The position numbers were made by a program, and so were the translations under genes. 43,644 nucleotides of DNA from Candidatus Latescibacterota bacterium. Lineage in GTDB: Bacteria; Latescibacterota; UBA2968; SICM01. Below the pieces are notes generated by a model. It did not search any database. It worked only from the letters and a program-made list of their open reading frames with translations, and was not told the DNA's origin. The stretch lies in NCBI GenBank assembly GCA_009694805.1, contig SICM01000015.1:1-43644 (forward strand), given 5' to 3'. This document shows, one piece after another, positions 9,938 through 40,100 of this stretch. The number at the start of each line of letters is the position of its first letter. Position 1 is the stretch's first letter.

Positions 9938-9993
9938 GGGTTCTCCAGTCACAGGTTTTGTACGGTTCCATATCGTTCGGCGCAGGCCCGCCC

Positions 9994-11964
9994 TCACGCC
10001 GTCGCAGAGGCCGTGATCGCCCCGCGCATTTTGAGGATGTATTTCGCCCTGTCCAACGGCGAGATCCCCTTGTACTCGCGTACCGCGCCCAGGTGGTCGG
10101 GACACGCCTCGTATCCTTCGAGCCTCACGGAAAGTTTCGCCTTCCCCCCGGTCAGCGCGCTCAGGCGGATCGGATAGTCCAGGGAGCTCGCCAGCGGGAA
10201 TCTGCCCCCGAGTACGAAACGCCCGTCGGCCGTTTCGGCGGGCTGGAAGCTGCCGCGCATCGCGGTGACGTCGGCCATGACCTTGCCCAGGAACGCTTCG
10301 GACGCCGAAATGCGGAAGGCGAGGATCGGTTCGAGCAGGGTGGTGCCCGTCTCCGTCAGACCCTTCATGGTCGCGATGTTCATGGCCAGCTTGAAATCCC
10401 CCGGGCGGCTGTGCAGGACGTGGTCGGACCCTTCCGTCAGGGTGATCTTCAGGTCCGTCACCTCCCAGCCCTTGATGCCCTGCGTCAGGGCTTCGGGAAT
10501 GGCCGAGGCGATCTCGTTCTGGTACTTCTGCTTGATGTCGTTCGTGCGCACTTCCGAACGATAGGACACCCCGCTGCCCCGCGCCGCCGGCTCCAGCAGG
10601 AACTTCACGATGGCCCAGCACGGCTTCGGCATGGTATAACTGTCGGCGCCGTAGCCGGGCCTTGCGGGCGTCTCCCTGTAGATCACCGTCGGGTCGCTGA
10701 GGACCGCCTCGATGTCGAATCGGCTTTTCAGCGCCTCGGCGAGGATCTCCGTCTGCACCGCGCCCGCAACCCTGACCTGCAGTTCCCGCTCTTCGTGGAA
10801 CCACCGGAAGCCCAGGTGGGGGTCCTCGCTGGAGAGCTGCTGGAGCGCTTCGGCCAGGCGGACGTAATCGCCTTCGTTCTCCGGTCTCACCTGGACAGAC
10901 AGGAGCGGCTCCATCAGCGTGTATTGACCCGGAACCCGTCCCGGATCGCCGAACACGTCGCCGATCCGCACGTCGGGCATTCCGCACAGGAAGCCGATAT
11001 CCCCCGCCTCCAGGACGCCGGTATCCTCGTACCGGGTGAGGGAGCGCCGCTTGATCTGGGAGACCTTCTCCTCGCGGCCAGCCGTCGTGTTCAGGACCGT
11101 ATCCCGGTTCCTCAGGCGGCCCGCGTACAGGCGCACGCCCGCGACGCGCCCCAACTTCCGATCGTGGTCGATCCGGAAGACTAGGCCCGAGACCGGCTGA
11201 TCGCAGTCCGTGTCCGCGTCCGGGAGACACGCGACGATCGCGTCGAGCAGCCCCTCGGTCCCGACGTTGTACTTGGCGGCCCCATGGAGCAGGGGGAAGA
11301 GCTTCCGGCCCCTCACGCACCGCGCCAGGGCGGCGTGGAGCGTCTCCATGCCCGGGTTTCCCGCGTTCAGGTAGCTGTCCAGAAGCGCGTCGTCCTTCCC
11401 GGCGACGGCCTCGATGAACTCCCTGTTCCGGTCGTGGACCAGGCTCGTCACGGCCACGTCCGCCCCGCCCTCGCGCTCGGGACGGTTGAGCGGCAGCACA
11501 TCCCGGGAGAACGCCTTCCGGAGGCTTTCGAGCACGCCGGCCGAATCGGCGCCGGTCCGGTCGATCTTGTTGATGTGGAGGATCACCGGCAGGCCGACCG
11601 CTTCAAGGGCCTCCCAGAGCGCCTCCGTCTGCGCCTGAATGCCCTCCACCGCCGAGAGCATCAGCACCGCCCCGTCCAGAACCCGGAGCGAACGCTCCAC
11701 CTCGGCGGAGAAATCCGCATGCCCCGGGTTGTCGATCAGGTTGATCTGCACGCCCTTCCAGGCGAAGGGCAGGACCGACGCCCGCACCGAGATCCCGCGC
11801 CTCCGCTCGACCTCGAGACCGTCGGACACGGTCGTCCCCCTGTCCACGCTTCCGACCGACCGGATGCTGCCGCTGAGGTACAGCATGGTCTCGGTCAGGG
11901 TCGTCTTCCCGGCGTCTGCGTGGGCCAGGATGCCCAGATTCCTGATCCTGCGGCCTTCCCTCAT
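9994..11964 (-). CDS. TetM/TetO-like translation-factor GTPase (ribosomal protection protein family)
   Basis: The product is 656 residues, close to the roughly 640 of Tet(M). Seen: P-loop AHADAGKT at residues 14-21, switch II DNPGHADF, NKID for guanine recognition, and the TetM-like order of EF-G domains through to a C-terminal RAKYILKMRG segment. The stretches RSLRVLDGAVLMLSAVEGIQ and TGTTLLEPILAF line up with Tet(M), which is closer than EF-G itself. The domain IV tip reads HSRPGDF where Tet(M) has a Y-S-P-V-S-T-P loop, so tetracycline protection is not assured. I chose ATG 11964 because AGAGGAG precedes it; ATGs at 11982 and 11988 lack a ribosome site. It lies 51 bp after lyase 2 and 56 bp before lyase 1, in the same orientation, so it is very likely co-transcribed with them. 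A translation factor inside a lyase operon is unusual. Confidence 0.88.
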   Translation of the reverse strand: MREGRRIRNLGILAHADAGKTTLTETMLYLSGSIRSVGSVDRGTTVSDGLEVERRRGISVRASVLPFAWKGVQINLIDNPGHADFSAEVERSLRVLDGAVLMLSAVEGIQAQTEALWEALEAVGLPVILHINKIDRTGADSAGVLESLRKAFSRDVLPLNRPEREGGADVAVTSLVHDRNREFIEAVAGKDDALLDSYLNAGNPGMETLHAALARCVRGRKLFPLLHGAAKYNVGTEGLLDAIVACLPDADTDCDQPVSGLVFRIDHDRKLGRVAGVRLYAGRLRNRDTVLNTTAGREEKVSQIKRRSLTRYEDTGVLEAGDIGFLCGMPDVRIGDVFGDPGRVPGQYTLMEPLLSVQVRPENEGDYVRLAEALQQLSSEDPHLGFRWFHEERELQVRVAGAVQTEILAEALKSRFDIEAVLSDPTVIYRETPARPGYGADSYTMPKPCWAIVKFLLEPAARGSGVSYRSEVRTNDIKQKYQNEIASAIPEALTQGIKGWEVTDLKITLTEGSDHVLHSRPGDFKLAMNIATMKGLTETGTTLLEPILAFRISASEAFLGKVMADVTAMRGSFQPAETADGRFVLGGRFPLASSLDYPIRLSALTGGKAKLSVRLEGYEACPDHLGAVREYKGISPLDRAKYILKMRGAITASATA

Positions 11965-12015: not shown

Positions 12016-14898
12016 CTACCGCTCGACCCAGCTCGAGTTCAGAAGCGTGACCTCCGCGCACTCGAAGGGTGGGTAGTCCCGGACCGTGAGGGTGTCGGCG
12101 GTCCGCGATTCGACCTCGAACCCCGTCACCGGGTAGGGCGTCCGCGTATCCTCGCAGTGGCGTGCGGGGCCCTGGGCCAAAAGGTGCGTGCCCGGTGCGG
12201 CCAGCCCTTTGGGCACGGGCGCGGCAAGGTGGATCGTCCGGTCGGACACGGACCGGACCGGGAGCGGGGTCGTCGCCTCGGGCAGGCGGATCTCCAGATC
12301 CCCGCACCCCAGCGACGTGCCGCCCAGCAGGTACCCCCGCACCGCGCGGCCCTGTCCGTCCAGCGACACGAACGCGAAGGCGCCGGCCGCGGTGACCGGC
12401 CCGTACTGCCGGCTGACCGTGTCGGGCGTCGAGATGACGATGTCGATCCGGCCCTCGAACTGGACCTCCACGGCTACAACGCCGGTGGCCGGATCGTTCA
12501 CCAGCAGTCGCGCGGAGCGCACCGGGGAGGCGGAATCTTTGTAGGGCACGATCACGGACGCGTACTGGGTGGTCAGGTCACCCCCGGACGACGATGCCGC
12601 GTGCTCGGCCAGGATCTGCTGGATCGGAGACTTCGCGAACTCCTCCAGCGACGCGGACCGCCACGCCGGGGCATCCACGATCACAACCCGGTCCACCGTG
12701 TCCCGGCCGTTCAGCAGCATCAGGTCCAGGTTCACGTCCCCGGCCTGCCAGGTGAACGTGGCCGGCGTCTCCGGGATCACGGCCCGGGGGTTGTCCACCC
12801 ACTTGCTCCACGACTCGGGCAGTTGCGCGGGCTGCGGCGTCGGCTGGTCCGGCGCAACGCGCCGCAGGGATCCCAGGCATTGAAAGCTGTACTGGTGGGT
12901 CTTCCCCCCCTTCACGCGGAACACGTCCACGGTGTAGTTCCCCCCGTCGGGCGCGGGGATGAGGGCGCAGGTGCGGCGGTAGGTCTCGCACTGGGGGTAC
13001 ACGGCCGTGCCGCGGGCCTGTACCACCTCGATCCCCGGCGCGACGCCGAACAGCTCCAGGTCCGACCCGCAGCCTTCCGCCGCCTGCTGCTCCGCGTCGA
13101 CCACCACCAGATTGTGCGAGAGCGTGTTGTTCACCCACATCTGCCCGGGCCGTCCGTCCGGCGTCAGCTGTGAACTGCCGGAAAAATAGCCCCTGTCGGA
13201 AGCCAGTTCCTGCCCGAAGGCATAGGTGCTGATGCTCAGCACGTCCCGGTGCCGGTGCGAGGTCTGAGACCGACCCGGTGAGGGTTTTTTGCCTGTGTGG
13301 AGGGTGCGGCGGTTCTCGTTCCCGTCGAAGTAGAGGGCCGTGTCGTTCGAGCCGCGCCCGCCGCGCAGCACGCCCACGTGCCATCCCGGCCACCATTCGG
13401 ACCTGAGCGGCAGGCTCACGAGCCCTTCGGCCTTCAGGTCCGCCGGCCGGAACCACAGGGCATATTCGCTCCCCTTTTCCGCCAGGCCCGCGCCCTGGAT
13501 CGCCTCCAGCATACCCGCATACGGACCGCCCAGCCGGGCGGCCAGAACCTCCACGAACGAGGCGTCCGCCCCCGTGTCATAGTGCGTGTCCCCGATCACG
13601 GGCAGCCGGTTCCCCGGGGCCAGCATCCGGACCATGGACAGCATCGCCCGGTTGAAGTGCCCGGATGCGAATGGGTTCAGGTTCTCGATCCGCGGACCTT
13701 CCTTCGGGGTGTATCCGGGGGGATCACTGTACCCCAGCAGCAGGTCCGGCATCTCGCGCGCGGTGGAGAAATTCGTGATCGCATACGCCGGCGTCTCCGT
13801 GTAGAACCCGTCGAAGTGGTAGCGCTGGTCCATCATCCGGTTGAAACCGTCCAGCGCCCGCCGAACCCGGTCAGGCTGACTCAGCAGCAGGCCGACCGCC
13901 GCGGACAGGGAGAAGGTGACCACGCCGAGGTTCGTGAGGTTGTCCCAGTGCTCCAGGTCTGCACATCCGGCGACGAGCAGGTTGTCCACGATCCGGCGGC
14001 CCGTCCCGTCACCCACCACCGGCCGACCGTCCGGAAACCGCGCCTCGCGGATCAGGTCATAGGCCACCGTCATGTCGATCAGCATGCCGGCGCCGCTCCC
14101 CTTGCCGTGGGTGTCCAGCCGACCCGCGCCCCAGAACCCGTTGAACAGGGTCGCGTGGTCCTCGTGTTGATTCAACCCGTACGCGTGTCGGATCACCTCC
14201 TTCGGCATCCGTCCCCCGCCGCCGTGCCGGCCCATGTTCTCGGCCACCTCGGCGGGCGGCCAGTCCGCGTAGCTGCCGTCATAGGAATGGTACAGGTAGC
14301 CGGGAAAGACCCGCGCGAACCGGTCCAGGATCCACGCGGCCCGTTCCGCGCACGCCGCGTCTCCGTACAGGGCGTACAGCTTGGCCATCCGGATGACCTG
14401 TCCCGCGGCCCATCTCACCTTGCGGTCCCGGATCATGCCCGAGAAGCTCGTCATCTCGGGCAGGTCGCCGAGCCATCGGAGGGCGTACCGCGCGCGGTCC
14501 TCCGGATGGGCCCGTTCTTCAGGGGTCTCGTAGTAGGTGAAAGTCTGCCCCATGCGGGGGCACTCCAGCGCGCCGGTCTCGGGGTACCGGTCGTTCGGGT
14601 ACACGGCGCCGCACGCCCGGCACGTGATCCGGTCGGGGTCGGTGACCTGCCAGTCGAAGGGCGAGGTGCCCATCAGGGACTGTTTGCCCACGCAATGGGG
14701 ACAGCTCTGGCCGTAGTGCGTCCCGGGCGTCAGGGCTGGAATCAGCCCGTCGAAGAACGCCCGGTCCTTCCCCAGGGCGTACGCCGCATCCCGCTTCCAG
14801 CCCGCCACGAGGTCGCGCGCCCATCCGTAGCGTTCGGCGTTCCGGCGGGCGTTCTCCACATCGCGGGGTTTGTAGAGCGTCTGCATGCCGTTTCCCAT
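12016..14898 (-). CDS. Heparinase II/III-like polysaccharide lyase 2 with zinc-ribbon insert
   Basis: The product is 960 residues. It opens with TLYKPRDVENARRNAERYGW, shared with lyase 3 (19072-21978), and ends with a shared motif (RDYPPFECAEVTLLNSSW). The zinc-ribbon insert has C66-P-H-C69 and C93-R-A-C96-G followed by YPNDRYPETG. Candidate catalytic Y372 sits in E-T-P-A-Y, and H548-R-H550-R-D552 forms the HxHxD motif of the heparinase II/III domain. The long C-terminal beta-sandwich region of about 350 residues is also shared with lyase 3. Start ATG 14898 has AGGAGG six bases upstream, while the same frame extends to 14985 without support. No signal peptide is seen. The paralogues probably arose by duplication and differ in substrate or cleavage site. 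Confidence 0.88.
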   Translation of the reverse strand: MGNGMQTLYKPRDVENARRNAERYGWARDLVAGWKRDAAYALGKDRAFFDGLIPALTPGTHYGQSCPHCVGKQSLMGTSPFDWQVTDPDRITCRACGAVYPNDRYPETGALECPRMGQTFTYYETPEERAHPEDRARYALRWLGDLPEMTSFSGMIRDRKVRWAAGQVIRMAKLYALYGDAACAERAAWILDRFARVFPGYLYHSYDGSYADWPPAEVAENMGRHGGGGRMPKEVIRHAYGLNQHEDHATLFNGFWGAGRLDTHGKGSGAGMLIDMTVAYDLIREARFPDGRPVVGDGTGRRIVDNLLVAGCADLEHWDNLTNLGVVTFSLSAAVGLLLSQPDRVRRALDGFNRMMDQRYHFDGFYTETPAYAITNFSTAREMPDLLLGYSDPPGYTPKEGPRIENLNPFASGHFNRAMLSMVRMLAPGNRLPVIGDTHYDTGADASFVEVLAARLGGPYAGMLEAIQGAGLAEKGSEYALWFRPADLKAEGLVSLPLRSEWWPGWHVGVLRGGRGSNDTALYFDGNENRRTLHTGKKPSPGRSQTSHRHRDVLSISTYAFGQELASDRGYFSGSSQLTPDGRPGQMWVNNTLSHNLVVVDAEQQAAEGCGSDLELFGVAPGIEVVQARGTAVYPQCETYRRTCALIPAPDGGNYTVDVFRVKGGKTHQYSFQCLGSLRRVAPDQPTPQPAQLPESWSKWVDNPRAVIPETPATFTWQAGDVNLDLMLLNGRDTVDRVVIVDAPAWRSASLEEFAKSPIQQILAEHAASSSGGDLTTQYASVIVPYKDSASPVRSARLLVNDPATGVVAVEVQFEGRIDIVISTPDTVSRQYGPVTAAGAFAFVSLDGQGRAVRGYLLGGTSLGCGDLEIRLPEATTPLPVRSVSDRTIHLAAPVPKGLAAPGTHLLAQGPARHCEDTRTPYPVTGFEVESRTADTLTVRDYPPFECAEVTLLNSSWVER

Positions 14899-15018
14899 GG
14901 CGTTCCTCCTCTTCACCCGTTTTCCGGGCAAGGGCCTCGATGCCCGCCCGGATGCTTCGAAACATCTGTCGCTCAGAGGGCGCAAGCCGTTCCTCCCTCC
15001 GCACTGGCCGCCTGGACC

Positions 15019-19071: not shown

Positions 19072-21978
19072 TCAGCTCTCGATCCATTTCGAGTTCAGCA
19101 AGGTGACCTCGGAGCATTCGAAGACCGGGTAGTCACGGACCGTGATGGTCTTCCCGCATGTGGACTCGATCTCGAACCCCGTGACTGGCAGCGTCGTGGG
19201 CGTTTGCGCGTCGCCGGGGGCCGGCCCACGTGCCAGTAGATAGGCGCCACGCGCGGCCAGTCCCCCGGGCGCCGGCCTTTCCAGGTGGATCGTCCGATCC
19301 GATACGGACGCCACGCGCAGCGTGGGGGTCGCCTCGGGCAGCGTGATGTCCATATCGCCGCACTGCAGGCGCGTGCCTGCCAGCAGATAGGCCTGGACGA
19401 CGTTCCCCGCGTCGTCAACGGATACGAAAGCGAGTTCGCCGGCGGCACCGACCGGGCCGACCTGTCGATGCCGCCGGTCCCTGGCGGACAGGAGGTAGTC
19501 GGTGCGGCCCGCGAGCCGCACCTCGACGGCCATGGCGCCGGTCTCGCAGTCGTTCTCCAGCATCCGGGCCGACAGAACCGGCGAGGCGTCCCCCCGATAT
19601 GCCGCCGCCACCGCGGCGTACTGAGTCGTCAGCGCCTCAACGCCCTCGGCGGCGCGGCTCTCGGCCAGGATCTGCTGGATGGGCGGCCGGCCTTCCAGGG
19701 CTTCGCTGCAGCACCGCCAGCCGGGAGCATCGGCGACGATGATCCGGTCTATGGTGCTGTCGGTGTTGAGCACGGTCAGGTCGAGATTCACATCGTTCCG
19801 CTTCCAGGTGAAGACGCACGGTGCTTCGGGAACGACGGCCCGAGGGCTCTGTAACCACGAACTCCACATTCCCGACAACTCGACCGGGCAGGACGCGGGG
19901 TGAATCGGCGTCATCCCCTTGAGCGAGCCGTTGCAGTGGAAGGCATACTGGTGGATCCGGCCGCCGCTCACCCGGAAGAGGTCCACGACGTAATGCCGTC
20001 CGCCGGGAATGCGGATCATCGCGCACGTGCGGCGGTAGTCTTCACACTGCGGATAGGCTTCCACGGCGGAGGCCTGCACCACCTCGATTCCGGGAGCCAC
20101 CCCGAACAGCTCCAGGTTGGACCCGCACGGGCGCCGCTCACCCACCACCGAATACCCGCTCTGGTCCTGTTCGTCGACGACCACCAGATTGTGGGACAGG
20201 GTTCCCGTGGCCCAGCATCGTCGGCGTCCATCGGGGGTTACCACATAGCCGCGGTCGGAGGCCAGCTCCTCGCCGAAGGCATAGTAGCTGAGACTGAGAA
20301 TGTCGTTGTGACGGTGGCCGGTGTGGATGGTCCGGTTCCACTCGTTGCCATTCAGAAAGAGCGCCGATTCGTTCGCCTCAGGGTCTCCGCGCAGGACTCC
20401 GACGTGCCAGCCGGGAAACCACTCGGTACGCAGGGGCAGCCGGGTCTCTGCTTCCGCACGAAGGTCGGGGTCCCGGTACCAGAGAGAATACTCGCCGCCC
20501 CACTCCGACAGGCCGGTGCCCATCACAGCCTCGAGCAGACCGGCATACGGGCCTTCCAGCCGCGCCGCCAGCACCTCTGCGTAGAGAGGATTGATACGCG
20601 TATCGGGAAAGGTATCCCCGATGACCGGGAGGAGGTTCCGGGGGGCAAGCTGGCGCACCATCGACAGCAGGGCAAGACGAAAGCGTCCGTGCGCGTACGG
20701 GGCCAGGCCGTCGATCCGCCGTCCGCCTTCCGGCTGGTAGCCGGGGGGGTCGGAATAGCCCTCCAGCAGGTCCGGCAACTCGCCCATGTTGCCGTAGTTG
20801 TGGGCCGCATAGGCCGGCGACTCCGAGTAGAACCCGTCGAAATGGTAGCGCGTGGCGAGGATCTGGTCGAAACCATCCAGGGCGCGCCGCACCCGCTCGG
20901 GTTGCTGCAGCAGGAGCCCGACCGCCGCGCTCAGGGACCGGGTGGCCACCCCCTTGTTGCTCAGGTCGTTCCAGTGATCGTAGTCCGTGCACCCAGCGTC
21001 GATCAGGTCCGCTACGATCCGCCGATGCGCCTGCCCTTCGTAGACGGGGCGGCCATCGGGATACCGCGCGTCCCGGGTCAGGTCGTAGGCCACGGTCATG
21101 TCCAGCAGCGGCCCGGAGTCGCTGCCCTTGCCGTGAGGCTCGAGCCGGCCCGATCCCCAGAAACCGCTGTACATCGTGGAGTAGTCGCCCCGCTCGTCCC
21201 GCTGCCGGCTGAGCCCGTAGGCATCCCGGATGGCGTCCGGCGGGAACCGGCCGCCCGGCGGGGTCGCCGGATTGTCCATTTCAGCGGCCACCGCTGCCGG
21301 CGGCCAGTCGGCATAGCTGTCTGTGTACGTCTTGTACAGATAGCGTGGGAACACCCGGGAGAAGCGGTCCAGGATCCAGGCGACCCGCTCGGCACAGGCC
21401 ACTTCGCCGGTGACCGCGTACAGCTTGGCCAGCGGCAGCGTCTGCCGCCACGCCCACTGGGCCCTGTAGAAGCGGATCAGGCCGCTGAGGCTCGTCATCT
21501 GAGGGCGATGGGGGACAAGCCCCATGAAGGCGTGTTTCCGCCGTTCCTCGGGAGTCGCGAGGGGGCCCAGCGCTCGCTCTGCGGGCGGCTGGTAATAGGT
21601 GAAGGTCTGGCCCATGCGGGGACATTCCAGCGTGCCGGTTTCGGGATAGGCGTCATTGGGATACTCGGTGCCGCACCGGCTGCAGGTCAGTCTGTCCGGG
21701 GCGCTGATGCTCCACCGGAGCACGAACTCCTCCGCGCCCTCGGTTGAGTGAACGCCGACGCAGGCCGGGCAGTTCTGCCCGTAATGCTGGCCCGGGGTGA
21801 GTTCAGGGATCAGGTGCTCGAAAAAGCCCCGGTCCCGTTGCGTGGCGTATGCAACGGCCTGCTCCCAATCGCGCACGATCTGCTGCGCCCACGGGTAGCG
21901 TTCGATATTGCGGCGGGCGTTCTCCACGTCGCGGGGCTTGTACAGCGTCCGACTGTTGATGGCGACGGAACCGTTCAT
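19072..21978 (-). CDS. Heparinase II/III-like polysaccharide lyase 3 with zinc-ribbon insert
   Basis: The product is 968 residues, paralogous to lyase 2 over its whole length (same start motif TLYKPRDVENARRNIERY and end motif FECSEVTLLNSKW). The zinc ribbon has C70-P-A-C73 and C99-S-R-C102-G, then YPNDAYPETG. Candidate catalytic Y390 lies in E-S-P-A-Y, and the HxHxD motif is H555-R-H557-N-D559 (GHRHNDILSLSYYAFG). ATG 21978 has AGGAGG upstream with good spacing. No signal peptide is seen. The gene begins only nine bases after the stop of the upstream gene, strong evidence for one transcript. The lyase 2 and 3 genes are separated by the GH36-like and ceramidase-like genes, so the duplication was not a simple tandem. 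Confidence 0.88.
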   Translation of the reverse strand: MNGSVAINSRTLYKPRDVENARRNIERYPWAQQIVRDWEQAVAYATQRDRGFFEHLIPELTPGQHYGQNCPACVGVHSTEGAEEFVLRWSISAPDRLTCSRCGTEYPNDAYPETGTLECPRMGQTFTYYQPPAERALGPLATPEERRKHAFMGLVPHRPQMTSLSGLIRFYRAQWAWRQTLPLAKLYAVTGEVACAERVAWILDRFSRVFPRYLYKTYTDSYADWPPAAVAAEMDNPATPPGGRFPPDAIRDAYGLSRQRDERGDYSTMYSGFWGSGRLEPHGKGSDSGPLLDMTVAYDLTRDARYPDGRPVYEGQAHRRIVADLIDAGCTDYDHWNDLSNKGVATRSLSAAVGLLLQQPERVRRALDGFDQILATRYHFDGFYSESPAYAAHNYGNMGELPDLLEGYSDPPGYQPEGGRRIDGLAPYAHGRFRLALLSMVRQLAPRNLLPVIGDTFPDTRINPLYAEVLAARLEGPYAGLLEAVMGTGLSEWGGEYSLWYRDPDLRAEAETRLPLRTEWFPGWHVGVLRGDPEANESALFLNGNEWNRTIHTGHRHNDILSLSYYAFGEELASDRGYVVTPDGRRRCWATGTLSHNLVVVDEQDQSGYSVVGERRPCGSNLELFGVAPGIEVVQASAVEAYPQCEDYRRTCAMIRIPGGRHYVVDLFRVSGGRIHQYAFHCNGSLKGMTPIHPASCPVELSGMWSSWLQSPRAVVPEAPCVFTWKRNDVNLDLTVLNTDSTIDRIIVADAPGWRCCSEALEGRPPIQQILAESRAAEGVEALTTQYAAVAAAYRGDASPVLSARMLENDCETGAMAVEVRLAGRTDYLLSARDRRHRQVGPVGAAGELAFVSVDDAGNVVQAYLLAGTRLQCGDMDITLPEATPTLRVASVSDRTIHLERPAPGGLAARGAYLLARGPAPGDAQTPTTLPVTGFEIESTCGKTITVRDYPVFECSEVTLLNSKWIES

Positions 21979-23236: not shown

Positions 23237-24928
23237 TTAACCCGTCCGGTCAACTCCCCGGGCCGCGTGCAGTTCGACAATCTCCGGATCGCCGAGGGCT
23301 CCGTCGTAGAGGCGCACATCGCCCAGATCCCCGCTGAACGGCCCCTGGGGGCCGTTGCCGAGCAGCAGCGGCTCCGGATTCCCGAGGTCGAACGTGGTGC
23401 GATCCGGCCCTCGCGCGGTGGCCGCCAGCCGTCCGTTGAGATAGAGACGGAGGTCCCGCCCCTCGCGCACGCCAGCCACGTGGGTCCAGTCCGCTCCGAT
23501 ATCCTTTTCGTGGCTGGCCATCAGCCCCGCCTGACAGGCCAGAACCCGGCCATGGTTGCCCTCGGGATCGCAATCAATAGACCTGGCCTGGCAAACGCCG
23601 GTGCCCGCCATGAGCCGGCCCTGGAACGAGGCCATGCAGCTGACACGACCCCAGCTGGGAAGGCGATCCTGGCTCCAGTCCGGCCGCGTGGCCAGGCTTC
23701 CCAGCAGGGTCCACTGGTCGTCCTTCTCGAAGCGGTAGACCTGCGACTTGGGCAGCACGCCGGCATACAGCTTGCCGTTGTGCACGGTGAGGTCGTTGAC
23801 CTCGTTGATGAGCGGGGTTCCCGGACCGAGCGGGAGCCCGAGACAGCCGACCCTGGCCCAGTCTGTGTTGCCCTCGTGCCTGAGGACATAGGCATGCGGC
23901 CAGGTGCCGATGTGGAGCCGGCCGCCGTAGGCCCGCATGGAATGGATCTGGGTGATGGAATGGGGTCGATCTCCCAGCAGGCGCCAGCCCCCTTCCCCCT
24001 CGAGGCGATAGATTCTCGTGTGCGTGGCCCCGTGGAGCGCCCCGTCCATCGGCATCAGGTTCTCCACGTTGTCGCCATTCAGGCTGCCGCAGTCCACCCA
24101 GCGATCCCCTTCCATCCGGAACACGTGGCCGCCGCCCACGCGGTCCAGCCCGGCATACAGAAAGCCGTCGAAACTGGCCAGCGTCAGCACCCGCACGCTC
24201 TCTCCCACCTGGCCCAGGTCGCGCCAGCGTCGCCCCCCTTCATGGACGAAGACGTGCGAGGGGGCGGGCGCAAAGCCGTCCTTCCCGGCGGACCGGACCC
24301 AGTCCCAGACGCCGGTTCCAGCGTAGAGCCGGCCGGCGTGCACAAGCATGGACTGGACCGACAGATGCCCGGGGTCGCTTCCGAGCCGGCCGCAGTCCTC
24401 CCATTCTGTACCGCCCGCCCATCGAAACACGCGCGCGGCGTCCCGGGGGTCAGAGGCGTCCGAGATGCCCGCATAGAGCGATCCCTCGTAGACCGCCAGG
24501 TCGCTGACCAGCCCGTTGGACGGCCACGGCCTGCCGTAATCCTGCCACGGCCCCAGGTAGGCGTCGTCGATGCCGAAATGGACGTGGCGCGTGTCGCACA
24601 TGGCGTTGTAGCCGGGCGAACTTCCCGCCACGCAGAGCGTAAAGCCGCACCGGGCAGGCCCGTGGAACTTGCCGAGGATCTCCCCGAAGTTACCCCGCAT
24701 CACCGCGGGGCAACGCACCCAGGCCGAGACGGTGAAATCGCGACTTCCCAGCATCAGGCCGGGGGAAGTCGGGACCTCGATCCGACTCCGGCCGGGGCCG
24801 AACCGGACGGCGCCCGTTCCTGGCGAAGGGCCTTCGACATAGCCGACATCGTGGGCGGCGCCCGGATGCCTGCCGGTCCTGTCCCCGGCATTGCCCTTCA
24901 GCGGCCAGTGGGCGATCAGGCTGTTCAT
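23237..24928 (-). CDS. LamG/concanavalin-like domain split by an inserted beta-propeller
   Basis: The product is 563 residues. Residues 1 to about 120 look like the first half of a LamG/concanavalin A-like domain (LIAHWPLKGNAGDRTG, DFTVSAWVRCP, GEILGKFHGPARCGFTLCV). From about 125 to 470 there are roughly seven propeller blades of the form GRLYAGTG, FLYAGLD, GRLHIGTW, GKLYAGVL, RLMAGTGV. From about 475 the second LamG half returns (D480-WTHVAGVREGRDLRLYLNGR, then GDLGDVRLYDGALGDPEI). LamG domains bind sugars or glycans and propellers often bind ligands or proteins. No signal peptide is seen. ATG 24928 is preceded by GGAGGTGAAGGAG. The propeller inserted in the LamG sheet is an uncommon layout. 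Confidence 0.75.
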   Translation of the reverse strand: MNSLIAHWPLKGNAGDRTGRHPGAAHDVGYVEGPSPGTGAVRFGPGRSRIEVPTSPGLMLGSRDFTVSAWVRCPAVMRGNFGEILGKFHGPARCGFTLCVAGSSPGYNAMCDTRHVHFGIDDAYLGPWQDYGRPWPSNGLVSDLAVYEGSLYAGISDASDPRDAARVFRWAGGTEWEDCGRLGSDPGHLSVQSMLVHAGRLYAGTGVWDWVRSAGKDGFAPAPSHVFVHEGGRRWRDLGQVGESVRVLTLASFDGFLYAGLDRVGGGHVFRMEGDRWVDCGSLNGDNVENLMPMDGALHGATHTRIYRLEGEGGWRLLGDRPHSITQIHSMRAYGGRLHIGTWPHAYVLRHEGNTDWARVGCLGLPLGPGTPLINEVNDLTVHNGKLYAGVLPKSQVYRFEKDDQWTLLGSLATRPDWSQDRLPSWGRVSCMASFQGRLMAGTGVCQARSIDCDPEGNHGRVLACQAGLMASHEKDIGADWTHVAGVREGRDLRLYLNGRLAATARGPDRTTFDLGNPEPLLLGNGPQGPFSGDLGDVRLYDGALGDPEIVELHAARGVDRTG

Positions 24929-25020: not shown

Positions 25021-28000
25021 TCACCCCACGGATATCCGGGGAATCTCGACCCGGTCGCCGACCCCGTACTGCCAGATGCCGATGACCTGGCCGCCATAGT
25101 CGCGCTGAAGGTCCGAACCGGGCGCCTCCTCCGCAAGAAACAGCTCACTGGGCACGCCGCGCACGGCGCCGCGAAGCTGCCGTGCCCGGCCCCCCTCTCC
25201 CAGCCACGCACCCGCGAAGTAGTCGCCGCCGGGCTGGGGGATGAGGTCTCCGTCCGCGGACTTTTTGCTGAGGGTCCAGTCCAGGAAGGCATCGACCCAC
25301 AGCCTCCCGTCGGCAGTCCGGGTCACGGGCCCCCGGGCCAGGAGCGCCGTGGGGTCGAAGGTCAGCCAGAGATCGCGCCCTTCGACCTCCGTCTTCACGA
25401 TCCGGAACATGGCGGTGCGGCTGCCGTTGTAGACGCGCACGCACCGGCCGGGAATGAAGTCCTCCGCGCGGTGTCCGGCCCCCGCGATGCGGGCGCGCTG
25501 TCCCGCGTGGTCCGTCTCGCGGATCACCCCCTCGGCGTAGCCTGGTTCACCGGGGCCACCGTACTCCCCGATGCGGATGTCGCGCACGCAGCGCTCGCCC
25601 TGCAGCGTCCACACGCGGATGCCCAGGGCGCGATGCCCCTTGTCGCGGCTCGATCCGACAGGGCTGGCCAGGGTGATCTCGTCCACGGCGCCCTCTCGCG
25701 CCACGCGCAGCGTCAGCGGCGAAGTCCCCACGACCTCGATCTGCTCCACAACCGGCGTGCCCTGGTAAGGGTCCATCACGGTCAGGAAGTGCGACGCCTC
25801 GCCGTCCCTGGCCTCGCGCCGCGCCAGGACATAGTCGAGCCCCCAGTCCGCCGGGCGGGCGGGAGAGCGGCCGGTTCCCACGATCACCTGAAGCGGCGCC
25901 CCCACCGGCACGATGTGCAGGTTGAGCCGGTCGCCGCCCTCTATGCCATAGTCCCACGTCCAGCCGGAAGGCCTGTCCAGGGTCGCCCGCCGTATCCTCG
26001 ACAGGAAGCACCCAAACGCCGTCCCCGCTCGCCCCCATCGGTCGGTGAACGCGGCGAACTGCGACACCTCCGGCCCGGCCAGCGTGCCGGTGCGCTGCTC
26101 CGTCCAGTCCAGCGACGGCAACTGCACGGGCCTGAGCGGGCCGTGCCAGCTCTGGGTGTGCTCCTGGCCTCCCCGCACGGCAAAGAGGTCCACGACGTAG
26201 AACCGGCCGGGTGCGACATCCACCAGGACCGTGGTGCGTTCGTAGAGGTCCACCCCGTGGGCCGGCCCTTCGGCAAACAGCGGGGCCGGATAGGGGTCGT
26301 GGGAGGCCGTGACCGCGTGCACCCCGTCGATAGACACGAAGAGACGGCACGCGCCCCCGCGTCCGTCCGCGCCGTTGGTCTGATCCACGGTCACGGTGTT
26401 GTGGGCGATGGTGGCATTGTCCCATTCCTTGCGGTACTCCCACGTCGTGGGATAGCCCAGGTCCGGCAGGAGGTCCACGCCTCGCGCCCACAGCTCCAGG
26501 TTCAGGTTGTCGCACTGACGGTGCCCGATGATGGAGGTGTAGTTGAGGGCCAGTGCGCGGTGGTTCGGCCCGGGCTCGTTCTCGACGATGGCCACCCCGT
26601 ACCCGTCCAGCAGCCGGGGCCTCCGCTCGATGCAGGACTCCGGACGGGCCAGCAGCGCCCTGATCTCGGCCTCGGGGTACGGCTCGAACAGGTCGCCGGC
26701 GGTCAGCACCCCGTCGGGCCCGGTGCAGGCCCGCGCGTGTCGGGGGTCGCCGTACCGCGCCACGGCATAGAGGTTCTGTGCCCCCAGGAGGGAGTGCGTG
26801 CGGGGCTGCTTGCGGCGCTCCGGCCGGTCCGTGATGCCTCCGGTGTCCCCCACCGAGGGCGCGACGTCGCTCCCGATCAGGAGGTCGATGTGATGGTCGA
26901 AGATCGCCCGGCCTTTGGGGTTGCCGAACAGGTCCGGAAAACGGTCCTCCGTAAAGCGGCCGGGCTGCCGCCGGCGAACCTCCTCCATCAGCCGGTTCAC
27001 GCGGATGAAGTCCAGCTTGATCGTGTTGTAGCCAGGGCTCTCGATCCCGCCGCCGTCCGTGGTCAGTCCGTTGAGGATCACCCACGCGGCGCGGCCGTCA
27101 CCCTGGAAGGCGTACTCCACCATGTCCGCCGAGTTCGGGTGGCGGCCCTCATCGTAGTCGTCCATCACGAGCGCGCAGGCCAGCGCCGCGGCCTGATGGT
27201 GCCCCGCGTTCCCCCGGATGTGGCCGTTCAGCAGGCCCTCCATGCCCACCCGGAGGAGGTTCTCCTCGATGTAGCGGCGCAGGTCGTCGCCGCTCTGGAC
27301 GGACATCCCCCTGGCCCTCAGGAACCCGAGCATGCCCGGGTCCTGATCCATGTAGTTCCAGAGGCCGTCGTAGGCGTACGCCATCGCCTCCAGGCAGAAC
27401 GTCTCCCAGATCAGGTCGGTGATCATGCCCCCCGTCTTGTACCGGTAGTGCGGGTCGTGCCCGCCGAAGGGCCCGTACGCCAGGCGATCCTTCCGGTCCG
27501 TGAAGTTGGGGTACTCGCTGGCCAGCCTCGCCAGCAGGATGCAGCCCTTTCGGGCGTAGCGCTCGTCGCCGGTGAGCAGCCAGGCCTGAGACAACGAATG
27601 CAGGCAGGGGATGGTGTTGTTGCCGTAAGCCATGTGGGCGTATTCCACCAGGAAGTTGTAGCGCTTGCCGTCCACCACGCAACCGCCCCCGTCGTCCGGG
27701 AAATCCCCGGAGGTCATGTCCCCGTTCATGTAGTCGTTGCTGGGGTACCATTCCCCTCCCGCCCGGCACCGGACCTTGTACGGATGATGGATCGGATCCG
27801 TGGTCCAGGCGGTCCACACGCTGTGCTTCCGTACCTCCTCGCCGTGCACGGGGCACAGGGCCTGAGTGTCGTGAACCTGGAACCGTGGAATCAGCGTCGT
27901 GGGCTGCATCAACCAGATGAAGTCGTCGCTCTGGGCGATGCAGTCCGCGGCCGATCCGTACGTCCTGCCGATGTAGTACATGTTGGCGTCGCCGGCCATC

Positions 28001-28125
28001 ATGCGCCGCCGCAGGTCCCGAGACCATTCGTGGCCCGCGGCGAGGTTCGCCCTGCCCCGGGCCACGCGCTCGGGGGTGTAGTAGGTCGGCTCGGACTTGG
28101 CGCTGACGGAGTTGAGGGACATCAT
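25021..28125 (-). CDS. Heparinase II/III-like polysaccharide lyase 4, divergent active site
   Basis: The product is 1034 residues from an ATG-ATG pair with GGAGG upstream. It has an N-terminal YYTPERVARGRANLAAGHEW segment and a decayed zinc ribbon (C91-P-V-H94 and C120-R-A-G123 in place of two CxxC pairs). An alpha/alpha toroid (HMAYGNNTIPCLHSLSQAWL) follows, then candidate catalytic Y366 in E-S-P-G-Y and the heparinase II/III sheet region. At the HxHxD position it has H535-R-Q-C-D539 (GHRQCDNLNLELW), so the second histidine is glutamine. It may have another metal site, another substrate or reduced activity. A C-terminal region of about 350 residues is unlike lyases 2 and 3. No signal peptide is seen. 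Its first 45 codons are repeated in a chimeric fragment at 32299-32433. Confidence 0.83.
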   Translation of the reverse strand: MMSLNSVSAKSEPTYYTPERVARGRANLAAGHEWSRDLRRRMMAGDANMYYIGRTYGSAADCIAQSDDFIWLMQPTTLIPRFQVHDTQALCPVHGEEVRKHSVWTAWTTDPIHHPYKVRCRAGGEWYPSNDYMNGDMTSGDFPDDGGGCVVDGKRYNFLVEYAHMAYGNNTIPCLHSLSQAWLLTGDERYARKGCILLARLASEYPNFTDRKDRLAYGPFGGHDPHYRYKTGGMITDLIWETFCLEAMAYAYDGLWNYMDQDPGMLGFLRARGMSVQSGDDLRRYIEENLLRVGMEGLLNGHIRGNAGHHQAAALACALVMDDYDEGRHPNSADMVEYAFQGDGRAAWVILNGLTTDGGGIESPGYNTIKLDFIRVNRLMEEVRRRQPGRFTEDRFPDLFGNPKGRAIFDHHIDLLIGSDVAPSVGDTGGITDRPERRKQPRTHSLLGAQNLYAVARYGDPRHARACTGPDGVLTAGDLFEPYPEAEIRALLARPESCIERRPRLLDGYGVAIVENEPGPNHRALALNYTSIIGHRQCDNLNLELWARGVDLLPDLGYPTTWEYRKEWDNATIAHNTVTVDQTNGADGRGGACRLFVSIDGVHAVTASHDPYPAPLFAEGPAHGVDLYERTTVLVDVAPGRFYVVDLFAVRGGQEHTQSWHGPLRPVQLPSLDWTEQRTGTLAGPEVSQFAAFTDRWGRAGTAFGCFLSRIRRATLDRPSGWTWDYGIEGGDRLNLHIVPVGAPLQVIVGTGRSPARPADWGLDYVLARREARDGEASHFLTVMDPYQGTPVVEQIEVVGTSPLTLRVAREGAVDEITLASPVGSSRDKGHRALGIRVWTLQGERCVRDIRIGEYGGPGEPGYAEGVIRETDHAGQRARIAGAGHRAEDFIPGRCVRVYNGSRTAMFRIVKTEVEGRDLWLTFDPTALLARGPVTRTADGRLWVDAFLDWTLSKKSADGDLIPQPGGDYFAGAWLGEGGRARQLRGAVRGVPSELFLAEEAPGSDLQRDYGGQVIGIWQYGVGDRVEIPRISVG
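27988..28122. repeat. 135-bp direct repeat, copy 1 (start of lyase 4)
   Basis: This segment matches 32299-32433 over 135 bp without gaps, with about 12 mismatches by eye. It covers the first 45 codons of lyase 4. Several mismatches are clustered at the codons for RANLA/QQNLA; others are scattered, so the copies have had time to diverge. Confidence 0.8.
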
Positions 28126-28155: not shown

Positions 28156-30108
28156 CTACGGCAGGACGTTCTCCAGCACCGCGACTTTGTGCACGCAATC
28201 GCAATAGACGCTCTTCCCGTGCACCCAGCATCGGTGGAGAAAGCCCTTGCGGAAGACGGCCATGTCAGAGAAAGCATCGCGCGGAAAGTCCCACAACCGC
28301 AACGAGCGGTCGGTGGTTACCAGGAACAGCCCCGGCGTCCCCGCGTAAAGAATGTCCTTCGCGCCTTTCGGCAGGGGGATCATATCGGCATCGGATGCGA
28401 AGGCGCATGCGGCTTCGTCGAACACGCCCAGGCGGCCGTCGTCCCCGCGCATCAACCAGTTCCGTCCGCCGAGCGGGCCGACGGTCATCAGCTGACGCAG
28501 TCCGCGCGGGGCAATGGCACGTTTGACGACGTCCATGGTGACCGGGTCCATGGTGACGGCGTAGACCCTGTCGCACACGGGGACGGCGGTACCCGCATCG
28601 CTGAGGAACGAGGTGCCCGCGACCAGATGCTTCGTGGCCGGGTCCCACAGGGGGTTCAGGACGTGCTGATTCTTGAGGCTGGCGTTCCGGTAGGCGGCCT
28701 CGCCGGTCTTCGTGTCGTAGCGGATCAGGGCGCCGTCCAGCGTGCCGTAAAGCGGCTTGAACGCGGCCCAGACGATTTGACCGTCGGTCGCCATGCCCGC
28801 GCCGTGCTGGCCCTGGTCGCTCTTCGCCACCAGCCGGGGATTGCGCGGCCAGTTGGCCGGACGCCCGGGGTCGAACTCGGTGAGCTGGGACCCCCCGTAC
28901 GCGATGAAGTAGACCTTCCCGTTCACGGTCAGCGCGGCGTCGATCTGGCCGTAGGAAGCGGCCGCGCGGCCGCCGTCCTGTCCCTTGCCCGTCTTCGTAT
29001 CCAGGATCCAGAAGTTCTGGCAGATGAAGGGCGTGCCGACGACCCTGTCCTTCCCGGCGGGACAGACGGCATGGCCCAGATGGACATCCCGATGCTCGTA
29101 TTTGACCGTCCGCTCCAGGGCGCCGCTCCGGGCGTCAAAACGCTGGATGAGGCCGTGAAGGTCCACCGCGAGGATGCGACCACTCCGCGTCAGGGCGATC
29201 CCCTGCCCCAGATGATCGGCAAGCACCGCCATCGTGCGCACGTCGCCGGTCCGGGCGTCCCACCGGAGCAGCTTGCTGTCGCCCGAGTCCTGGCTCTGGA
29301 TCCCATAGACAACGTTCCCGATCGCGCCGAACCAGGTCGCCTCCTCGCGCGGCGGTCTCGGGCAGCGAGCGACGCGGCCCGTCAGGCCGTTCAGCCATCC
29401 GAGATGCGGGATGTAGATTTTTCCGCTCTTGATATACGAACCGGTTCTCACATGCCTCAGGGCCGGATGCCGGGGATCCTCGATCAGGACCCGAGCGTCG
29501 ATGCGCTCCTCCTGGGGGAACCAGCGCACATAAGTGAGTCCGGGCGTCTCAAGCAGGAAGCCGTAGGACCCGTCGGGGTTTCGCCAGTGGAACCAGTGGA
29601 AATGGCAGGGACCCATCTCCTCCTGCGAGTAGGTCCGGATGTACTTCCTCCTCACAGTGTCGAAGGAGACCATCGCGCTGCCGCAGCCGGTGAAAACCTT
29701 TTTCGTGTCCGGGTCGTAGGCCAGGCCGGATTGGATGTAATGGCCCGCGGGAGCCGGGTAGGATTCCAGGGCGCCCGAGGAGAGCGTCAACCGGTAGAGG
29801 CCCGGACCGGCGGGGCCGCCGCCGCCCATCCAGACCGTGTCGGGGTCACCCCCCGCGACCGCGCCGTAGCAGTAGGTGGGACGCGCGCCTTTCGGCCAGG
29901 CGTAGGCGCGATAAGCGCCCCGTTCGTCCAGGACGAGGGTGCGGGCGCCGGTCGTGCCGTTCAGGCTCGAGATGGCGAACCGTTCCAGGCCTCGACGGTC
30001 GACGCCCAGGCTGACGAGCCCGCTGTTGACGAACGGGTCCTCGGTTTCCGGCTTTGGAAATACGCTTGCCCGTCCCCGTTTCCGGGCCAGGGTGATCTCG
30101 TGCGCCAT
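28156..30108 (-). CDS. Beta-propeller protein (PQQ/YVTN-like repeats)
   Basis: The product is 650 residues, made almost entirely of beta-propeller-like blades: GLYRLTLSSGALESYPAP, KVFTGCGSAMVSFDTVRR, LLRWDARTGDVRTM, LIQRFDARSGALERTV, NFWILDTKTGKGQDGG, ALIRYDTKTGEAAYRN, RLGVFDEAACAF, SLRLWDFPRD. The D-x-K/R-T-G turns are typical of PQQ-like or YVTN repeats, but the tryptophan-docking motif of PQQ enzymes is not evident. I assign no enzyme activity; such proteins bind ligands or act as non-catalytic platforms. No signal peptide is seen, which is odd for this class. ATG 30108 has AGGAGG upstream. It lies 30 bp before lyase 4 and is likely translated from the same mRNA. Confidence 0.75.
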   Translation of the reverse strand: MAHEITLARKRGRASVFPKPETEDPFVNSGLVSLGVDRRGLERFAISSLNGTTGARTLVLDERGAYRAYAWPKGARPTYCYGAVAGGDPDTVWMGGGGPAGPGLYRLTLSSGALESYPAPAGHYIQSGLAYDPDTKKVFTGCGSAMVSFDTVRRKYIRTYSQEEMGPCHFHWFHWRNPDGSYGFLLETPGLTYVRWFPQEERIDARVLIEDPRHPALRHVRTGSYIKSGKIYIPHLGWLNGLTGRVARCPRPPREEATWFGAIGNVVYGIQSQDSGDSKLLRWDARTGDVRTMAVLADHLGQGIALTRSGRILAVDLHGLIQRFDARSGALERTVKYEHRDVHLGHAVCPAGKDRVVGTPFICQNFWILDTKTGKGQDGGRAAASYGQIDAALTVNGKVYFIAYGGSQLTEFDPGRPANWPRNPRLVAKSDQGQHGAGMATDGQIVWAAFKPLYGTLDGALIRYDTKTGEAAYRNASLKNQHVLNPLWDPATKHLVAGTSFLSDAGTAVPVCDRVYAVTMDPVTMDVVKRAIAPRGLRQLMTVGPLGGRNWLMRGDDGRLGVFDEAACAFASDADMIPLPKGAKDILYAGTPGLFLVTTDRSLRLWDFPRDAFSDMAVFRKGFLHRCWVHGKSVYCDCVHKVAVLENVLP

Positions 30109-33435: not shown

Positions 33436-34380
33436 TTAACGGTCCCCAAACCAGTCCTCCGGGATTTCCAGGGACCAGACCTCGTTGCTGAGGGGCTCGG
33501 CATGGCCGCCGGCGAGCCATATCTTGTCCTGGAACACATAGGGGGCGATCTCGTGGCGGGCCTTCCAGATCACGTCGGATTTGAGCTCGGTCCATCCCAC
33601 GCCGTCGGCGCTGTACCAGACGTCGCCGAAGTTGCCGTGCTCCTTGGACCATCCGCCGAAGACCCAGAGGTGTTCGCGGTAGGCCACGGCCCCAAACCAC
33701 AGCCGTGGCGCCCAGGAGGCGGCCGGTGTCACCTGCGTCCAGTGCACGCCGTCTTCCGAGCACCAGACATCGTTGGTCGCGACGTGCTGCGGATTCCACA
33801 GCCCGCCGCCCATGATCCACAGCTTGTCCTTGAAAACGACCGCCTGGGAATGGGCCCTCTTCGACCAGCCGGCGTTCGGGGTCTCGAGCTTCCAGCCCTT
33901 CCCGTCCGCCGAGGACCAGACGTCGTTCTTGACCATCGCCTCGCTGTGATCGTAGAAACTCTCGGTGCCGCCGAAGACCCACATCCGGTCCTTGAACACG
34001 GCGAAGCAGGGCGACACCCGCGGGCGCCAGCCGGCCTGGCCTTCGAGGATCCACGCCACGCCGTCGGTCGACGACCAGACCTTGTTGCTGCACTCGGTGC
34101 CCGGCAGCTTGCGACCGCCCATAATCCACATCCTGTCGTCGAAGGCCAGCGACACCGGCAGGTCGCTCTGCACCCACGGCGCATGCTCCTGCACGCAGGT
34201 CCATTTCTTGCCGTCCGGAGACTTCCACACATCCACCGGATTGGGGTCCTGCGGCGTGAACCAGCCGCCCAGAATCCAGAGGTGGTCGCGGTACACAAAA
34301 TCGCCCATCGAGTCCCGGGCCTGCCAATCGGCCTTCGGGTTCACGCACACCCAGTTCGGACCTCGCCTAGCCTCACCCAT
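33436..34380 (-). CDS. Kelch-repeat propeller protein
   Basis: The product is 314 residues with six Kelch blades, each with a hydrophobic strand and a double glycine followed by an N-x-V-W-x-S-x-D-G turn: DHLWILGGW, DRMWIMGGR, DRMWVFGGT, DKLWIMGGG, EHLWVFGGW and DKIWLAGGH, with turns such as SNKVWSSTDG, KNDVWSSADG and TNDVWCSEDG. Six blades form one complete propeller. No catalytic domain or signal peptide is attached (start MGEARRGPNWVC). ATG 34380 has AGGAGGA upstream. Kelch propellers bind proteins or glycans, and sialate epimerases have this fold, so binding or epimerase activity is possible but not shown. It is the intact counterpart of the truncated gene at 30451-30894, which had a signal peptide. 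Confidence 0.85.
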   Translation of the reverse strand: MGEARRGPNWVCVNPKADWQARDSMGDFVYRDHLWILGGWFTPQDPNPVDVWKSPDGKKWTCVQEHAPWVQSDLPVSLAFDDRMWIMGGRKLPGTECSNKVWSSTDGVAWILEGQAGWRPRVSPCFAVFKDRMWVFGGTESFYDHSEAMVKNDVWSSADGKGWKLETPNAGWSKRAHSQAVVFKDKLWIMGGGLWNPQHVATNDVWCSEDGVHWTQVTPAASWAPRLWFGAVAYREHLWVFGGWSKEHGNFGDVWYSADGVGWTELKSDVIWKARHEIAPYVFQDKIWLAGGHAEPLSNEVWSLEIPEDWFGDR

Positions 34381-37056: not shown

Positions 37057-37137
37057 TCACATGGCCACATCCGCGCCTGCCTTGAGGACGAATGGCAGGA
37101 TGCGCTTCATCTTGCCGTCGTCTTTGCCCCGCTTCAT
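37057..37137 (-). CDS. Possible 26-residue ORF overlapping the lyase stop
   Basis: An ATG at 37137 overlaps the TGA of the chondroitin-lyase-type gene as ATGA, a form of translational coupling. The ORF runs 26 residues (start MKRGKDDGKMKRILPF) to a TGA at 37057. It is basic and has no recognised motif. It may be a remnant or chance. Confidence 0.15.
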   Translation of the reverse strand: MKRGKDDGKMKRILPFVLKAGADVAM

Positions 37138-40100
37138 TTCGGGGCAACCGTCAAACCATAGCTTGCCCCGTGCCGGCAGACGATCTCCACGACCGTCTCG
37201 GTCGGGCTTGAGGACACGATGCGGACGTCCTGGCGCGCGTCCGGGAGCGGCCAGGCGCAGACGGTGGCCGTAGCCTCCTGCAGCCGCCACCCGCCCCGGA
37301 GGGTGACGCGCATCGCTCGCGGCGGGAGCGGGGCCGCACCCGACTGGCTCTCGGGCTTCCCCAGGCTGAGGTCCGGGTCCGCTACGCTGACGTGCAGAAG
37401 ACCGTCTTGCCCGGTCTCGGTCATGACGAGGCAGGGCCGTTCGACCGCCTTGACCGGCAGCGCGTCGCCGGCAACGGCGTGGGCGGCGACTTCGCCCGGG
37501 GCATAGAAGGCGCAACACCACCGACGCCCCGGGACGTCCCAGACGATGTGGGCGGCCTGGTCGCGCTGGAGGATCCGGTAAGGGGGGGCCTTGGCGAGGG
37601 TCTGCATCGCTTCGGGTGTCGCACGGACGACGAGCACATATTCGTAGCTTGCGGCGACTGGGGCCTTGCCGTGGTCGATCCAGGCGGTGAGGAAGTCGCC
37701 CTCGGTGTCTCCCTGGTCCTGGTACTCCCGGCTCTTCTGGTGCCAGCGGGCCACGGTGACGTTCTGGCCGGCGGGAAGGTAGTACCCGGTCTGTTGCACG
37801 TCCAGGAACCAGTGGGGACCCGCCTGGTCGAGAACCCGTTCCTCCGGGAAGGCCGTGAAGTGAGCCCCGTCGAGGTAGGTCGGGACGAATCGTCTGTCGC
37901 CGTCCTTGAAAAGACGCTTCTGGCACAGCGTGGTCTGGGTGGGAACCTCCGCTTCGTCGCACGTGATATCAGAGCCCAGGCAGAGGATCCGATCGTCGAT
38001 GAGGAACCAGGTCTTGCACCCCCGGAGGACCTGTTCCCCGGGCATGGGCTCGTTCTGCCACGACGGTCGTCGGTGGATGTCTGACCCGGTCCCCTGGCCT
38101 GGCATGGGCTGGTTCAGGCGCATCGCGAAGATGCCCTGACGCCCCAAGTGGGAGAGCCCGCCCACGAAGGTCTCGGGGGAATAGGGTGACGTCCATCCCT
38201 CGTCGATCCTTTTCAGCGGCAGCCGAGGGGCGGTGACGCCCTCGTACCGACGCCAGTCCCAGCCCTCCTTCTCGCAGCCGCTTGCCTTCAGGCTCACCGG
38301 GTCTCCCCCGGCCAGGATCTCCACGCTGCCCAGGCCCTGGAAGAGCCCGAAGCAGTTCACCTTGGACTGCCGCTCGGTTCCCCACACGTACCGGCTCTGA
38401 CCGTGGACGCTGACGAGCCAGTTGTCCCGCCGATGGCTGAGCAGGGCCGCGTAAGGCATCACGAAACATCCATTCGGCTCCGGCTCGGGACCGATACCCA
38501 GGCTTCGATATGGCTCTTCCCGAGCAGCCTCGGGCGCCAGGCGCAGGTACGCGGCCGCTGCCTCCCGGTCCACGGTCCCCCTGCCGTCCGGCGTGCCACA
38601 CCGCGCGATGGCGTCCAGCCCCGCCGGCAGGATTCCCAGGGAGTACTCCACGAAGGGCATGCGTCCGCTCAGCGTGAGGGGCTGATCACGCTGGTTGCAG
38701 AAGATCCGCTGGGCCAGGAGGGCGCGCCGAACCCGTTCGTGCGCCTCGGCGCAGAGCCGCCAGGGGGTGTCGCTCAAAAACCGGAGAGTCGAGGCCAGCC
38801 CCGGCATCGACGCGTAAGTATAGTGGAAATAGTGCCCCCCGTGGTGATAGGCGGAGCCGTCGATCTTCAGGGCGCTTGAGGGCTGCAGGATCGAGCGCTC
38901 CAGGGTTGTCTTGAAGGCACGCAGCCAGCGGATCTGCTCGGCCGGTTCAGTCTGCAGCAGACAGGCCCGAAGCAGTCGGGGCACATCGAGCAGGAAGTAG
39001 TCCGAATAGGAGGGGGGTGCGGCTTCGGAAAAGAGCGCCCCGCCGCCCCAGTTCCAGAGGAAGTAATCGCACTGCCGCGAAAGCCGGCCGGCTTCTGCCA
39101 GGACGCTGCGCATCAGGAACACGGCATCGGCCCACGACCCGCCGTACCACCAGTTCCAGTGGAATCCCGAGGCGGCCTGCATCCCCTGGTCGTACAGGTG
39201 GGCTTCGATGAGGAGGAAGGCATCTGCCAGGCGGCGGCGCTGGTCGGCATCCCGGCTGGCCCGATAGGCCGTGGCTACCTGGAGGGCGAGGGAGCTGATG
39301 GCACCGGGGGCCTGGACGCCAGGGGGGAATTCGGGCCCGTGCTCGTCGGGCCAGTAGTCCTGGTCCTTTGCGCCGTGTTCCCCGAACTCGCAGCAATACT
39401 GGAGGTGACGGTCGATGCCCGGTCCGCCCCGGACGCCGTGCTCATCCTGCACGATGCCAAGGGCCTCCACCTGGGCGCAGAGGTCCTTCGCGCTCGCCTC
39501 GCCGATGCCCGGACCCTCGTCGGGACCCAGCAGCGCGCGAATCCCCGACAACTCGGCTTCGGTCACGCGCTCGGGCTTGGGGTAGCGCCCCTCGTCAGGT
39601 ACCGGGCGTTGCCACCGGGCCTCCTTTTCGATGTCGAGGCCCCGGCTGGGGTGGGTCAACGTGTTGTACTTGATCAGGTCCAGGAATAAGGTGCCCGAGG
39701 GCGCGCCGTTCGGCGCCACGATGCGGATGGTATCCACTTCCGTCGTCGGTTTGCCACTCGGGAAGGCATGGTAGAAGGGACGACCCTGCCGCCAGCCGGT
39801 GTATGCCAGGGGAAACCGGAACGATCCGGCAACCTTCCCGCTTTCGCGGAATTCGAAAACCAGGGCCTCGGGGATCGGCGCCTCCACATACACCCACACG
39901 GAAAAAGAAGGTCTGTTGGACCGGCCGATTCCTCCGACACGGTCAAGGTCCCCGATCCCGTGACGGATGACGATCTCCTCTCCACTCCGCCAGTCCCAGC
40001 GGAGCGAGTTCTGCCCGTGCTTGCTGTGCCGCTGGCTGAGGGTCAGACTCTCCGATCGGGTCGCCGTAAAGTAATTCGGCACGCCGTCTTCGAACGACTC

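Follow-up and report, generated by a model that had tools for sequence, protein, structure and literature searches.

Joining of a beta-propeller and a lectin-like sandwich in a single polypeptide chain has several known solutions, differing in the order and mutual embedding of the two folds. The propeller of sialidases and trans-sialidases is six-bladed and furnished with Asp-boxes, and in the sialidase of Vibrio cholerae a lectin sandwich is inserted into the propeller, which is the reverse of the nesting considered below. Insertion of a whole seven-bladed propeller into another fold is exemplified by the prolyl oligopeptidase family, where it interrupts the alpha/beta hydrolase and gates the protease; this precedent has no visible sequence relation to the protein studied here. 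LamG domains and seven-bladed propellers as such commonly serve binding or scaffolding. In sialidases and trans-sialidases the lectin-like domain comes after the catalytic one (PMC8865650). They share with our protein the presence of a propeller and a LamG-like sandwich in one chain (e.g. 1ms9), but in the latter the propeller is nested inside the LamG domain, has seven blades and lacks the Asp-box.

The window, by which we mean the whole analysed stretch of 43,644 nucleotides, belongs to a Latescibacterota MAG and contains on its minus strand the open reading frame 23237-24928 coding for this protein of 563 aa. Its ATG start is preceded by GGAGGTGAAGGAG, and the in-frame stop situated three codons upstream leaves no room for a signal peptide. 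The gene and the structural elements of its product are as follows:

23237..24928, minus strand: whole nested LamG-propeller-LamG protein, 563 aa, without signal peptide (ORF and AF2 model)
24554..24928, minus strand: N-terminal part of LamG, residues 1-125, strands 3-8 to 115-125, the last strand being RHVHFGID (DSSP, LamG alignment, covariation)
23510..24553, minus strand: inserted seven-bladed beta-propeller, residues about 126-473, 348 aa (DSSP, repeat register, PDB fold matches)
Residues 140-181, 190-240, 247-282, 290-320, 327-362 and 375-411, minus strand: propeller blades 1-6 (DSSP)
Residues about 127-131 and 427-473, minus strand: blade 7, with strand d as N-terminal Velcro and strands a-c, respectively (DSSP)
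23258..23509, minus strand: C-terminal part of LamG, residues 474-557 with WTHV.., ..LYLNG.. and ..GDVRLYDGAL.. (PF13385 match at 480-550 and AF2 model)

Architecture of the interrupted LamG domain

The Pfam profile LamG_3 (PF13385, curated cut-off 27.6 bits) recognizes residues 480-550, aligned to positions 80-150 of 151 with 63.1 bits, and the N-terminal part taken alone stays below the threshold with 12.3 bits. Residues 1-125 joined to 474-557 give a single continuous match covering profile positions 11-150 of 151 (65-68 bits), so that the gain in score, as judged from this alignment, is modest but collinear. The sandwich is that of the LamG_3/ConA-like domain, with 348 residues inserted into the hairpin that precedes the W-x-H-V strand, and such a nested layout explains why annotation recognizes only half of a LamG. 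All 23 members of homologue alignment A1 match PF13385. On LamG domains from the same phylum that lack the insert (L229-L232) the family profile aligns as two pieces, 3-77 and 468-557, which are only 36-60 residues apart versus about 390 in the nested family, implying that the latter has approximately 350 extra residues at this place; in PDB entry 6hox both pieces align within one solved sandwich. The first-pass annotation described two recognizable LamG halves about 350 residues apart, in agreement with the 348 aa found between them, and the collinearity of this order in 153 distinct homologues indicates that the LamG-propeller-LamG arrangement is not a matter of chance.

Structure prediction over residues 1-563, suggested at that stage, led to the same outcome. 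The AlphaFold2 model built from 74 homologues reached pLDDT 95.4 and pTM 0.94, and prediction from the window protein as a single sequence gave pLDDT 35. DSSP assignment of the former places LamG strands at 3-125, propeller strands after them and LamG strands again at 482-542, strand pairing being derived from DSSP, homology and covariation together. Strands of the middle segment fit a 7 x 4 scheme, with two series of seven repeats in register, i.e. tryptophans (W128, 176, 235, 277, 315, 357 and 406) and GxL-type, or GxLYAG-type, motifs (G149, 199, 255, 296, 336, 385 and 437). Since W128, which corresponds to the tryptophans in strand d of blades 1-6, precedes blade 1, blade 7 is assembled from both ends of the propeller, the N-terminal one supplying strand d and the C-terminal one strands a-c (3+1 Velcro); the ring-closure pair 131-464 ranks 198th among 129,382 covariation pairs. 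With Velcro self-closure of this kind, both ends of the propeller would emerge side by side and fit the hairpin between strands 115-125 (RHVHFGID) and 482-489 (WTHV) without disturbing the sandwich, as the model, homology and covariation suggest. The family provides a clean natural example of a Velcro-closed propeller inserted into a beta-hairpin.

Independent information on the relation between the two LamG parts was obtained from regularised-covariance analysis of the 153 distinct homologues (effective number 114; 129,382 residue pairs). The strongest couplings connecting them are 69-538, 98-484 and 116-484, ranked 2nd, 6th and 23rd, respectively, and the pair 87-517 also falls among the 26 strongest. 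Pairs between the N- and C-terminal parts are enriched about 1.9-fold, while pairs of either part with the propeller are depleted, and the odds ratio of N-C versus half-propeller coupling is 4.0 for the top 100 pairs (p 1.6e-4) and 2.5 for the top 500 (p 2.1e-9), these p-values being nominal and indicative only, as residue pairs are not independent. Strand 115-125 covaries with 482-489, the two forming the hairpin that holds the propeller. Its assignment to LamG follows homology and the couplings and is partly post hoc. With 115-125 counted as propeller, a test over whole strand ladders gave a weak result by Fisher test (p 0.21) and a strong one by rank test (p 3e-5); exclusion of residues 113-125 left the pair-level N-C enrichment unchanged (2.1-fold).

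Taken with the model and the insert-free LamG relatives, these couplings uphold the initial proposal of one LamG domain interrupted by a complete propeller, and we consider it nearly certain that a whole seven-bladed propeller resides inside a single LamG sandwich. The alternative of two separate domains, folding independently around a central propeller as beads on a string, can refer to HMMER, which by itself passes the threshold for the C-terminal part only, but is highly improbable in view of the continuous match of the joined halves, the location of both parts within one domain in intact LamG homologues, the covariation that links these parts to one another and not to the propeller, and the mere five or so strands available in the C-terminal part alone.

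Among solved structures, Foldseek finds seven-bladed propellers, and streptogramin B lyase Vgb (2z2p, 2qc5) has the same fold with TMt 0.74-0.78 (0.78 for 2z2p), but it is a stand-alone enzyme with 8-9% identity to our protein. The top PDB match is a trans-sialidase (propeller plus lectin); within the top 50 chains TM, taken over the query length, stays at or below 0.43, and a viral fold library yielded only partial matches to propeller or LamG. Affiliation with described families was considered as well. Membership in the Kelch repeat family was rejected, as Kelch_1 matches one of the 23 alignment members with E 0.085; so was membership among sialidase/BNR proteins, since the Asp-box S/T-x-D-x-G-x-x-W/F is absent from the window protein and occurs 0.09 times per homologue over 153 sequences. 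The best NCBIfam match is TafC (22.9 of 410 bits), and LamG_3 is the only Pfam family found; neither library contains a model spanning the whole protein.

Distribution and probable localization of the family

Alignment-based scanning of genome contigs revealed 255 loci encoding relatives, 80 of which were retained; the same scan with the single window protein as query gave no match. The search for other proteins of the same nested order was fruitful, resulting in the 153 distinct sequences mentioned above, which come from Latescibacterota, Hydrogenedentota, Planctomycetota and Armatimonadota and rarely from other phyla. The share of genomes in which a strict profile search detects the family is 31 of 68 in the Hydrogenedentota group, 20 of 392 in the Planctomycetota, 15 of 251 in the Armatimonadota, 3 of 289 in the Verrucomicrobiota and 1 of 247 in the Acidobacteriota group, each group being named after its centre genome and counted with it. 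Within the class of the host it occurs in most families, and the host genome itself carries two further full-length copies on contig C40, either side of a gene of the sister family described below; a paralogue of the window protein lies at L038:8244-9884. Hence, the rarity initially ascribed to this architecture holds for solved structures, where no full-length PDB match exists, and does not hold for genomes, in which the family is widespread. A propeller nested in LamG was not found in literature searches, solved structures (top 50 PDB matches), Pfam or NCBIfam. Both folds are common and known already, the novel element being the complete enclosure of a propeller by LamG in a conserved multi-phylum family, an arrangement that is itself well supported.

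By a crude test, 74 of 147 relatives possess a hydrophobic stretch upstream, so that about half of them have a signal-peptide-like leader, and it is lacking in 33 of the 34 relatives whose reading frame is preceded by a stop codon at most 25 residues upstream. Secreted and cytosolic versions of the nested protein thus seem to exist, and cytosolic location, as far as such leaders can tell, is not a family-wide property. One homologue from another MAG (L010, G039:C34:96497-98173) contains two in-frame TGA codons and may be decayed or affected by an assembly error.

Conserved residues of blades 5-7 and the sister family

Residues conserved among the homologues include the following:

23948..23950, minus strand: Q327, invariant, first residue of the inner strand of blade 5
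23801..23803, minus strand: E376, invariant, start of the inner strand of blade 6
23645..23647, minus strand: R428, invariant, start of the inner strand of blade 7
23897..23902, minus strand: W343-P344, conserved at 100% and 96%, respectively, where strand b of blade 5 ends and its b-c loop follows

The inner strand opens with Q in blade 5 (frequency 1.00), E in blade 6 (1.00) and R in blade 7 (0.99), the corresponding residues of blades 1-4 being L (0.42), S (0.47), A (0.37) and R (0.70), respectively. The b-c loops of blades 5 and 6 contribute W343, P344 and P393, with 96-100% conservation. Assuming usual propeller geometry, we take all six residues to share one face near the axis, and a conserved pocket on blades 5-7, a candidate for ligand binding or catalysis, appears likely. 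The invariant trio makes the function accessible to testing.

A sister family of about 500-535 aa from the same phylum (L038:6606-8240 on host contig C40, L224-L227 and L234-L247) keeps the Q, P344, E, P393 and R positions at about 20% identity. Its propeller is homologous, with whole-length HHalign probability of 99.6%, but its ends differ from those of the nested family, each half aligning at E about 0.03 only, and most members have a leader-like N-terminus. It shows no LamG match in Pfam and is covered by no Pfam or NCBIfam model. The ends (GQNFGSLFEA... and ...QDGRLLGSAP...WGKGVYG) may represent a second, unrecognised split sandwich. Conservation of Q327, E376 and R428, extending to this family, is the best pointer to a putative functional site.

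Gene neighbourhood and possible function

The gene lies within a long cluster (5517-40274) of co-directional minus-strand genes, which also encodes beta-helix proteins and PhyH and includes:

6839-11320, minus strand: heparinase II/III-like protein, above cut-off
12016-14985, minus strand: heparinase II/III-like protein, weak match of 17.8 bits
17685-19001, minus strand: ceramidase-like protein
19072-21978, minus strand: heparinase II/III-like protein, above cut-off
25021-28125, minus strand: heparinase II/III-like protein, above cut-off
37134-40274, minus strand: PL8, family 8 polysaccharide lyase

By its predicted content, the cluster looks like a locus for degradation of uronic-acid polysaccharides. 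Synteny with the window genes is almost lacking across the 80 loci of relatives, as only 2 of them have within 6 kb a neighbour matching the heparinase-like proteins of the window and 6-7 have ceramidase-like neighbours. Because the cluster combines heparinase-like, PL8 and beta-helix proteins, uronic-acid saccharides would be the likeliest ligands here, and together with the absence of a signal peptide these lyase neighbours make binding or processing of uronic-acid-rich saccharides the most likely role in the host. We infer that the working site is most likely formed on the propeller face at the inner-strand starts of blades 5-7 (Q327, E376 and R428 with W343, P344 and P393), LamG being a pedestal and possibly a second carbohydrate-facing surface. 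At first reading it was suggested that nesting would place two binding surfaces next to each other, which is a plausible idea. As a whole, the explanation uniting nested architecture, a site on blades 5-7 and a role with uronic-acid-rich saccharides seems rather probable; for its components, a saccharide ligand has about even chances and catalysis is a possibility of lower weight. The protein would thus act in saccharide recognition or processing with a putative working site on blades 5-7, and sequence cannot separate binding from catalysis.

Of the two narrower readings, the slightly stronger, albeit still tentative, one regards the protein as purely binding or scaffolding, with the propeller making protein or ligand contacts, LamG binding glycan and no catalysis. 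Weak profile matches to Kelch propellers speak in its favour, but Kelch membership is unsupported, and an invariant polar trio restricted to three blades exceeds the needs of a scaffold. The same trio, located where the inner strands of three successive blades begin and kept in the sister family, can instead be read as the putative active site of a lyase, hydrolase or isomerase acting on saccharide or another small substrate, with LamG as an accessory substrate-binding domain, by analogy with trans-sialidases and arabinanases, whose catalytic propeller is followed by a LamG-like domain. The lyase-rich neighbourhood and the trans-sialidase as top fold match are consistent with such an enzyme; however, neither a known catalytic motif, Asp-box included, nor an enzyme family of Pfam or NCBIfam was found, and the trio could equally bind ligand or be structural, which leaves this reading possible but somewhat doubtful. 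Its extension to a widespread enzyme family with a Gln-Glu-Arg active site for uronic-acid saccharides, LamG presenting the chain, and to a second, secreted nested family with the same trio is unlikely.

Besides the recognition or processing protein preferred here, the host encodes other proteins with propeller features. A separate Kelch propeller protein is encoded in the same cluster at 33436-34380 (PF24681, E 6e-18), and the 650-aa neighbour at 28156-30108 gives a weak match to the PQQ_2 propeller (23.9 bits, below the cut-off of 27.6). On host contig C144 (L228:1233-5627), a secreted-looking protein of 1465 aa contains many propeller-type repeats, ..SLYAGT.GGGVFRSDNGG.SWT.., resembling those of the insert.
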